11,244 nt of DNA from an uncultured delta proteobacterium (lineage in GTDB: Bacteria; RBG-13-61-14; DRUE01), in NCBI GenBank assembly GCA_903930515.1, contig CAIYYW010000015.1:1-11244 (forward strand). The letters are read 5' to 3'. The position numbers and the translations under genes were made by a program. Under the pieces are notes generated by a model. It was given only the letters and a program-made list of their open reading frames with translations, was not told the DNA's origin and did not search any database. Below are positions 4,879 to 9,656 of the stretch, in pieces; within the stretch, counting starts at the first letter, position 1; each line of letters begins with the position of its first letter.

Positions 4879-5724
4879 ATGGACGAAGAAGATAATAAAT
4901 TGCCGATTGAGCCGGTGCCGGAAAGCGAATACGGCAAGAAGCACAAGCAAGAAGAGGAATACTTCCGCAAAGAGGAAGAGGAAAAGATTAAGCGGCTGCA
5001 CGAGAAACTGACGGTTCAGGCGGCAGCGGGGAATAAGACGAAGACGCTGGCGACTCTGACCAATAAGGACCGGCTCAGATTGGCCGAGGCGGTCTTCGCT
5101 TTGCTCATCGCCCTGGCATTGACCTGGCTGGTGGTTTCGGTCAAGTCCGGCCCGATCGCCAAATACGCGGAGCTGATCCTGGCCTGGATCTGGCTTTACC
5201 TGCCGGTTCTTTTTATCTGGACGCGCAAAGAAGGTCTCAAAGATTTTGCCATCGCCCGGCTCAATTTGCTCCGGGGTCTGGCCTGGTTTTTGCTCGCATT
5301 GATCGCGATCTTTCCGATCTTTTACCTGGCCTCATATTTCTTTGCCGTCAAAGTCCTGGACTGCCGGTTTGTGTTGACCATTCCGAAAAATTTCTCCGGG
5401 CTCGCCATCAGCCAACTGCTCCTGATCTCGCTCCCGGAAGAATGGTTCTTCCGCGGATATTTGCAGGCGCGGTTCAATCAGGTCTTGGGCAAACCCTGGA
5501 AATTTTTATCCGCACAAATCGGCCCCGGGCTGTTCCTGACCGCGATCCTGTTCAGCCTCGCCCATTTCAGCCTCAATCCCTCCCCGGAACGATTGCTGGT
5601 CTTTTTCCCCGGCCTGGTCTTCGGCTGGCTCCGGGAAAAAACCGATTCCATCCTCGCGCCCATGCTCTTCCATTTTGCCTGCAATCTGACTTTTATCATC
5701 TTTCAGGTAAGCTTGCTCAAATGA
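4879..5724 (+). CDS. CPBP-family (Rce1-like) glutamic intramembrane protease
   Basis: A 281-residue multi-pass membrane protein. A highly charged cytosolic N-terminus (about 1-65, rich in Glu/Lys, possibly helical) precedes roughly seven hydrophobic segments at about 70-88, 95-114, 132-156, 173-185, 216-230, 239-250 and 258-278. The three family motifs are intact: EExxxR at E187-E188-WFF-R192, FxxxH at F225-H229, and HxxxN at H265-N269. These form the catalytic site of Rce1/CAAX-type glutamic proteases, which cleave substrates within the membrane. The PEEWFFRGYLQ stretch also recalls bacterial CPBP proteases linked to sorting of surface proteins, but no sorting-tag protein is seen in the window, so the substrate is unknown. 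Its TGA overlaps the ATG of the next gene (ATGA, 5721-5724), so the two are translationally coupled. No clear Shine-Dalgarno precedes ATG 4879. Confidence 0.88.
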   Translation: MDEEDNKLPIEPVPESEYGKKHKQEEEYFRKEEEEKIKRLHEKLTVQAAAGNKTKTLATLTNKDRLRLAEAVFALLIALALTWLVVSVKSGPIAKYAELILAWIWLYLPVLFIWTRKEGLKDFAIARLNLLRGLAWFLLALIAIFPIFYLASYFFAVKVLDCRFVLTIPKNFSGLAISQLLLISLPEEWFFRGYLQARFNQVLGKPWKFLSAQIGPGLFLTAILFSLAHFSLNPSPERLLVFFPGLVFGWLREKTDSILAPMLFHFACNLTFIIFQVSLLK

Positions 5725-6392
5725 TTGCAGAAAATATTTTTGAAGGGATTTACCTGGTCGGGTCGTCAAATCTGACCGACGAAAAGGATTGCTGCGTCTA
5801 TTTGATTGAGTTCCAGAGCGAGCTGGTCCTGATTGACTCAGGCGCCGGCTAGTCGGTTTCCCGGATTATTGAAAATGTCCGGGAGTTGGGCCTTGAGCCG
5901 GAGCGGATCAAAAAACTTATTCTCACCCACTGCCATATTGACCACATCGGGGGCGCCAACCAGCTCAAGAACCAGCTCGGCCTGGAAATCATCGCGCATA
6001 AAAACACCGCTGAAATCCTGCTCCGGCAAGACCCGGTCCTGACTGCGGCCAAGTGGTACGGACTGACGCCTGAAGTCATTCTGGTTGACCGAACTTTCAA
6101 TGAGCCGGAAATGATTTTGGAAATTGATCGGGAAAAATTGCATTTGCTTTTCATCCCCGGCCATTCCCCGGATTCCATTGCCGTTTATCTTGACCGCTCC
6201 GGAAAACGAGTGCTCTTCGGCCAGGACATCCACGGCCCCATCCATCCCAGCCTCGGCTCCGACCAATCCCTTTATCAAGCAAGCCTGCGTAAATTGATCG
6301 CCCTGAAACCCGATCTCCTCTGCGAAGGCCATTTCGGAATTTATCAGCCCAATTCCGCGCTTGAAAAATACATCCGGAGTTTTATTGCCTGA
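5721..6392 (+). pseudogene. MBL-fold metallo-hydrolase interrupted by one in-frame UAG
   Basis: A single frame runs 224 codons from ATG 5721 to TGA 6392, broken only by TAG at codon 44 (5850-5852). Before it lies the normal N-terminal half-sheet ending LVLIDSGAG; after it come SVSRIIENV and the whole active site. The metal ligands are complete: THCHIDH (HxHxDH, about bases 5926-5946), GHSPDS, the bridging Asp of GQD, and a final EGHFG. Family members read straight through this point with a variable residue, so the TAG looks like a point change of a sense codon rather than a gene boundary. The possibilities are a recent pseudogene, a base error, or UAG read-through. If translation restarted at TTG 5886 the product would lack the first beta strands. 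It is coupled to the protease gene by a 4-base overlap. The family hydrolyses thioesters, lactones and similar; the substrate is unknown. Confidence 0.8.
5859..5884 (+). other. 7-bp stem-loop six bases after the in-frame UAG
   Basis: TCCCGGA (5859-5865) and TCCGGGA (5878-5884) pair perfectly around a 12-base loop, beginning six bases after TAG 5850-5852. Downstream structures at this distance are known to stimulate stop-codon read-through or recoding in other systems. A 7-bp stem can also arise by chance in coding DNA, so this is suggestive only. Confidence 0.3.
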
Positions 6393-8423: not shown

Positions 8424-9656
8424 TTATTTAGCAGATGTACATGGATTATCATTAATTCGGACACCCCTTTGAATCAAAGCTGGAATTTCCACCTCACAGG
8501 CTTCTGGATCCAGTTGATTTGAGGAAATGGTCAACTGGCTAAGATGTTTTAGCCCTAAAAGAGGTCCAAGATCACGGACATCGCACTTCCATAAAGTCAA
8601 ATTTTGTAGGTTCCGGAGATTGGCTAGAGGAGAAATATCTGTGGCTTTCATTCCACCCAGCGAAAGCTTCTTAAGCCTGGTTAAACCAGAGAGTGGGCTT
8701 AAATCCATAATTGGATTGCCGACTAAATTCAATTCCTCCAGCCACACCAAACTAGATAATTGTTTAATCTCCTTAACTCCTTGGCCGGGCAATTCCAGAA
8801 TTCTTAATCCAGCTAGATATTCAATCCCGCTCAGATTCAAAATCGGACCACCAGAGCCATAATCACGACCTTCAACAAAGCTATAAAATTCTCTCATTCC
8901 GCAAAGCCGAGTTCTTGGAAAGGATTTTGGCTCTCTTTCTTTTTTATCATAATCCCTCGGTTCAATTCCTTCCCATGACCAAGTCAATACCCACATTTCC
9001 AAATTGGGATCCGGAAATTTCACGAACTCCGGCTTGAGCCCTTCATCAACCAAACCGTTGCAATCATTGTCAAAACCATCGCAAATTTCCTTAGCGCCAG
9101 GATGGATGAAATCAACTCCGTCATTGCAATCCGGACCTTTGATCCCATTATAACCATCGCAATTCGCCCAGAAGCCGTCCTGATCATAATCCTGGCAACG
9201 ATACCAATAGCAACTGGACCATTGGTTTGCCTGGTTGTCATCACAATCTTTTTTCACGGTTTTATACCGATCGCAATTGCTATAGTAGCCATCACCGTCT
9301 TTATCCTTGCATTCATCGCAACTTTTCCAGTTATTCGGATCCTGATCATTGCAATCCTTTTTGTGACGAACATATTGTTCGCATCCCACATAAGCCCCGT
9401 CTTGATCTTCATCCCGGCAGGTTTCGCATTTAGACCAGACATCCTGGTTGGCATCATTGCAATCTCCTCCGCCCTTCCGGTACTTCCAACCATCCGCATA
9501 ATGACCGTCCTGATCCCGATCCTTGCAAACAATCCATTTCCGCGCTCCATAGATTGCGCCATAAATAGCCCAGCCCAGGATTAGAACAAAAAATAAGGTT
9601 AGACTAGCCGCGCGTTCCAGCTTTTTTCGATCCCGCGGCTGATGATTTTCGGCCAT
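8424..9656 (-). CDS. Membrane-anchored MopE-type metal-binding repeat and leucine-rich repeat protein
   Basis: A 410-residue protein with a basic N-terminus and one hydrophobic segment (about 17-36), probably a signal anchor. Residues 44-206 hold four units beginning C-x-D-x-D-x-D-G at C44, C80, C116 and C154 (spacing 36, 36, 38), each followed by D-C-[ND]-D. They resemble thrombospondin type-3/EF-like calcium loops. The last unit ends in the MopE-type motif CDGFDNDCNGLVDEG (192-206). A linker of about 60 residues follows. Then come four or five 22-residue leucine-rich repeats (register points L284, L306, L328, L350, L372) of the internalin-like kind, with a short Cys-containing cap. The architecture says extracellular, metal-stabilised binding protein; the partner is unknown. 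The start is supported by GGAG nine bases upstream (9669-9666). The gene shares the AT-rich composition of the convergent gene and is on the same strand as the MopE relic near 1 kb. Confidence 0.85.
   Translation of the reverse strand: MAENHQPRDRKKLERAASLTLFFVLILGWAIYGAIYGARKWIVCKDRDQDGHYADGWKYRKGGGDCNDANQDVWSKCETCRDEDQDGAYVGCEQYVRHKKDCNDQDPNNWKSCDECKDKDGDGYYSNCDRYKTVKKDCDDNQANQWSSCYWYRCQDYDQDGFWANCDGYNGIKGPDCNDGVDFIHPGAKEICDGFDNDCNGLVDEGLKPEFVKFPDPNLEMWVLTWSWEGIEPRDYDKKEREPKSFPRTRLCGMREFYSFVEGRDYGSGGPILNLSGIEYLAGLRILELPGQGVKEIKQLSSLVWLEELNLVGNPIMDLSPLSGLTRLKKLSLGGMKATDISPLANLRNLQNLTLWKCDVRDLGPLLGLKHLSQLTISSNQLDPEACEVEIPALIQRGVRINDNPCTSAK
9039..9527 (-). repeat. Four tandem 108-114 bp coding repeats (Asp/Cys calcium-loop units)
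   Basis: Units run 9527-9420, 9419-9312, 9311-9198 and 9197-9039 (the last extended by the MopE motif), encoding the 36-residue periods of the LRR protein. Regular Asp codons make the antisense strand open and rich in Ile/Val codons, which creates a spurious hydrophobic frame on the plus strand (9102-9584). Confidence 0.75.

Follow-up and report, generated by a model that had tools for sequence, protein, structure and literature searches.

A lone in-frame UAG in an MBL-fold hydrolase gene of an uncultured delta proteobacterium is most likely a nonsense codon of an ordinary kind

Our analyses indicate that the in-frame UAG interrupting an MBL-fold metallo-hydrolase gene in an 11,244 nt stretch of DNA (the window) from an uncultured delta proteobacterium arose by chance as a nonsense change at a codon that is variable and non-catalytic, and represents a null allele of recent origin, a polymorphism among strains or a single-base consensus error (probability about 0.9). 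All relatives examined have a sense codon at the site, TAG acts as a normal stop in the part of the genome sampled, and a second lesion is absent from the gene. If the UAG is real, ribosomes would stop at codon 44 and release a fragment of 43 residues that lacks every metal ligand, and the downstream part would owe its intactness solely to the short time elapsed since the nonsense change. The original prediction left a choice between recent loss and read-through. The first of these (or a consensus error) agrees with what we find, and the second is disfavoured, given that neither the UAG nor the stem following it is conserved, that no PylS above the cut-off and no amber tRNA were found, that RF1 is present and that TAG behaves as an ordinary stop.

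The interrupted hydrolase gene and its surroundings

The predicted complete MBL-fold enzyme, with all metal ligands in place and the UAG as its sole break, is borne out by the read-through translation, which matches Pfam Lactamase_B (PF00753) over residues 26–204 (E 7e-26) and has the full set of seven ligands (HxHxDH, comprising H70, H72, D74 and H75, plus H148, D169 and H204). The TAG is flanked by the segments LIDSGAG and SVSRII, and apart from it the frame holds neither a stop nor a frameshift until the TGA at 6390–6392, in agreement with what had been claimed for the part downstream of the UAG. The coding score is 0.39 on the 5' side of the TAG and 0.31 on the 3' side, and the latter value indicates that what follows the stop is genuinely coding. 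Assignment to the class B beta-lactamases was rejected, the best bla model giving 77.3 bits (curated cut-off 100), as was subclass B3 (73.8 bits, cut-off 240).

An in-frame TTG at 5886, 33 bases past the end of the UAG, opens a 168-aa frame in the ORF list, and translation could in principle restart there to give a shortened 168-residue protein. Such a product would, however, have neither the strands at the N-terminus nor the conserved segment LIDSGAG, to which D39 belongs, and every matched orthologue aligns across the N-terminal region; we therefore consider a restart highly improbable.

Table 1. Positions of the hydrolase frame, its interruption and adjoining features within the window
Feature	Positions	Strand	Basis or remark
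CPBP/Rce1-like intramembrane protease	4879–5724	+	Pfam PF02517; NCBIfam Mrt_core above cut-off; upstream of hydrolase
MBL-fold metallo-hydrolase frame, one interruption	5721–6392	+	224 codons including final TGA; PF00753, orthologues, coding score
In-frame TAG, codon 44	5850–5852	+	82 orthologue loci: varied sense codons, stop in none
Inverted repeat (7-bp arms, 12-nt loop), attributed to chance	5859–5884	+	Chance-level count; pairing not conserved in orthologues

The TGA of the upstream protease gene and the ATG of the hydrolase overlap as ATGA, an arrangement which suggests that translation of the hydrolase is probably coupled to that of the protease. The protease also passes the NCBIfam model of the myxosortase core domain (123 bits, cut-off 100) but falls short of every named myxosortase model. 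Elsewhere in the window, the stretch 8424–9656 (− strand) carries a MopE-like metal-binding motif together with leucine-rich repeats, and it is possible that this and the protease are a candidate sorting system. The stretch 2368–2488, which separates the acyl-CoA dehydrogenase gene from that for UvrD, contains an inverted repeat; parts of it recur as 75–96% identical copies at at least seven other places in the genome (C37, C78, C25 twice, C394, C323 and C357), and it is probably a dispersed repeat element.

Orthologues and the age of the stop

A search of genome contigs gave 80 orthologue loci (45–53% identity), nearly all from uncultured Deltaproteobacteria of the Syntrophaceae/Smithella kind, and a further genome search gave one additional distinct orthologue; the set as used comprised 82 loci, 81 of them distinct (L087 and L006 are one gene). 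Conservation of the UAG, which an alignment of orthologues was proposed to reveal, is not seen: codon 44 is a stop at none of the 82 loci, and the residue found there is R, N, G, A, K, D, W, S, T, L, H, P, M or I. Since 14 different residues are tolerated, site 44 appears to be hypervariable, non-catalytic and free to vary, and a special residue would be neither needed nor expected there. The original prediction had named, as a result that would count against it, sense codons in all close relatives combined with further disabling changes in this lineage. Sense codons are present at 82 of 82 loci, and no further disabling change was found, which points to a recent event. Intact relatives and a lineage-specific lesion, as looked for in a recent nonsense pseudogene or null allele, are thus both observed, the copy in a genus-mate (G001) being a fragment without codon 44. 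That copy lies at a contig end and retains the last 24 codons only (12 identical to the window, 5 with synonymous and 7 with non-synonymous changes, and a stop at the same place), so it cannot date the event. On the same genus-mate contig (G001:C461, L137) the hydrolase tail is about 2.4 kb from a homologue of the window gene at 1–931, and the gene order therefore differs between the two genomes.

Of 70 positions at which at least 93% of relatives agree, the hydrolase differs at 13; its sister, the relative nearest to it and a member of the same order, departs at nine of them, and several changed sites are common to both. The hydrolase has the longest terminal branch in the tree (0.63, compared with 0.37 for the sister), which hints at faster evolution and to that extent speaks against a chance nonsense change, yet a relative-rate test was not significant (mean chi-square 1.3); the same test was likewise not significant for UvrD from the window. 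Considering that the changed sites are partly common to the sister and that the rate test was not significant, long-term decay was rejected. Synonymous divergence from the nearest full-length relative appears too high to allow a meaningful dN/dS for the hydrolase branch. With no second lesion, and with the relative-rate test passed despite the divergence, we infer that the stop either arose recently, is polymorphic among strains or reflects an error in the consensus. Two further points tell against the chance nonsense explanation: the lack of a second disabling change and the intact ligands would be expected also of a gene still in use, and the genus-mate copy gives no state for codon 44.

A single-base consensus or assembly error, with the gene intact in the organism itself, is a sub-case of this explanation. 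The genome is a fragmented draft (401 contigs, 93% complete), the lesion is isolated in a gene that is otherwise intact, and a substitution at the hypervariable site 44 would leave no other trace; single-base consensus errors are, on the other hand, rare per base, and we regard an error here as possible though rather unlikely.

The stem downstream of the UAG

The perfect 7-bp stem predicted at six bases after the UAG is indeed there, its arms being TCCCGGA (5859–5865) and TCCGGGA (5878–5884). When perfect 7-bp stems with loops of 3–15 were counted, overlapping stems included, the window was found to contain 25, compared with 13.3 in shuffles, and the hydrolase gene 2, compared with 0.83 expected (46% of shuffles contain at least one). 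The 50 nt after the UAG have a folding energy of −18.0 kcal/mol, for which dinucleotide shuffles give z = −1.4, and are within the most stable 5% of 50-base stretches, as sampled on the + strand between 1188 and 8400. The stem, for which conservation had also been proposed as a check, is not conserved: in 77 gap-free orthologues a mean of 2.4 of the 7 pairs can form, compared with 2.7 at random places. Moreover, no Rfam family matches the region 5700–6100 up to E 10. Given the chance-level counts, the z of −1.4, the lack of conserved pairing in orthologues and the lack of an Rfam match, we attribute the stem to chance within the reach of these tests.

Decoding of UAG in this genome

RF1, which reads UAG, is present (493 bits, cut-off 423). 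The search for pylS or an amber suppressor tRNA that was proposed with the original prediction yielded no PylS above the cut-off and no amber tRNA. The best PylS (TIGR02367) match in this 93% complete genome reaches 24.7 bits (cut-off 178) and sits in a 495-aa frame adjoining prfB that is, by eye, a lysyl-tRNA synthetase, and a CUA anticodon is found in none of 36 tRNA matches, a set that is incomplete (Trp, Tyr and Ile unseen) and in which tRNA-Pyl may escape the tRNA model. Anticodons were typed by ARAGORN for 35 of these; the 36th, partial at a contig end, is GAA by eye.

Since the tRNA set is incomplete, the behaviour of TAG itself is a stronger test than the tRNA search, and was judged on a sample of this genome amounting to about 0.69 Mb. 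Of the 297 long ORFs in the sample, 44 end in TAG, and the mean coding score in frame after the stop is −0.135 for TAG, −0.133 for TGA and −0.113 for TAA; TAG is an ordinary terminator in the sampled genome, and the in-frame sequence after it is as non-coding as that after TGA or TAA. Genome-wide suppression of TAG was rejected: 28 of the 111 same-frame candidate pairs in the sample follow TAG, but no domain crosses a stop in ten checked. At these ten, the most gene-like of the other TAG junctions, no Pfam domain spans the stop (five have different families on each side, two have a one-sided domain, and three are without a Pfam match and uninformative), and no domain crosses the stop in ten TGA/TAA control junctions either. 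The genome has 18 MBL-domain matches, and a stop lies inside this hydrolase only, the other 17 being uninterrupted. As a separate observation, at L203 (8209–9387, − strand) a TAA divides two coding-like halves; ABC-2 transporter models match the second half only, the best of them in its C-terminal part only (profile 166–339 of 347), and this could be another interrupted gene.

Insertion of pyrrolysine at the UAG is largely refuted, and we consider it extremely improbable. A UAG followed by a stem is found in some pyrrolysine genes, in which such structures are neither universal nor essential (PMC3639795), but no PylS exceeds the cut-off in a genome of this completeness, the residue at site 44 is not conserved in orthologues and TAG is an ordinary stop. 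A PylC-like N-domain match in one gene was set aside, given that the model also matches Bacillus subtilis and other control genomes.

Programmed or basal read-through of the UAG, stimulated by the stem and sustaining a low level of full enzyme, would be consistent with the intact downstream frame and ligands and with the start of the stem six bases past the UAG, and a case has been made for frequent low-level read-through in bacteria (PMC7918605). It is nevertheless improbable, considering that the UAG and the stem are unconserved, that the stem occurs at chance level and has no Rfam match up to E 10, that RF1 is present and that no amber tRNA was seen among the 36. The base directly after the UAG is U, a context usually regarded as favouring termination. 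That the UAG might act as a lineage-specific attenuator, low-level read-through, perhaps aided by the stem, setting a small dose of hydrolase, is very improbable; were read-through true, the UAG would serve an uncultured lineage as a means of setting enzyme dose.

Conclusions and comparison with known systems

A chance nonsense codon thus remains our preferred explanation, and the case is mainly cautionary: an isolated stop in frame, when a hairpin lies close by, can be mistaken for recoding, yet chance often produces hairpins of this size. The orthologues, together with the genome-wide behaviour of TAG, settle most of the recoding question.

The hydrolase shares full-length homology and all metal ligands with PF00753 MBL-fold hydrolases of uncultured Deltaproteobacteria (Syntrophaceae, Smithella and RBG_13_61_14), and departs from them in having UAG where they have a sense codon at site 44. 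It resembles pyrrolysine genes with a PYLIS (PMC3639795) in the order of UAG and stem; unlike in these, PylS stays below the cut-off, no amber tRNA was seen, and neither conservation nor an Rfam match is observed.

Finally, a published survey (Belinky et al., 2021; PMC7918605) describes isolated in-frame stops as widespread in bacteria and, for the most part, short-lived, and names among their sources pseudogenes, functional genes with a premature stop, errors of sequencing and artefacts of annotation. The interrupted ORFs of that survey likewise have one in-frame stop in a frame that is otherwise intact and show no further decay; the stops surveyed are common to at least two species, whereas the stop described here is from a single genome. 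The UAG in the hydrolase gene is most likely a lone nonsense codon of this ordinary kind.
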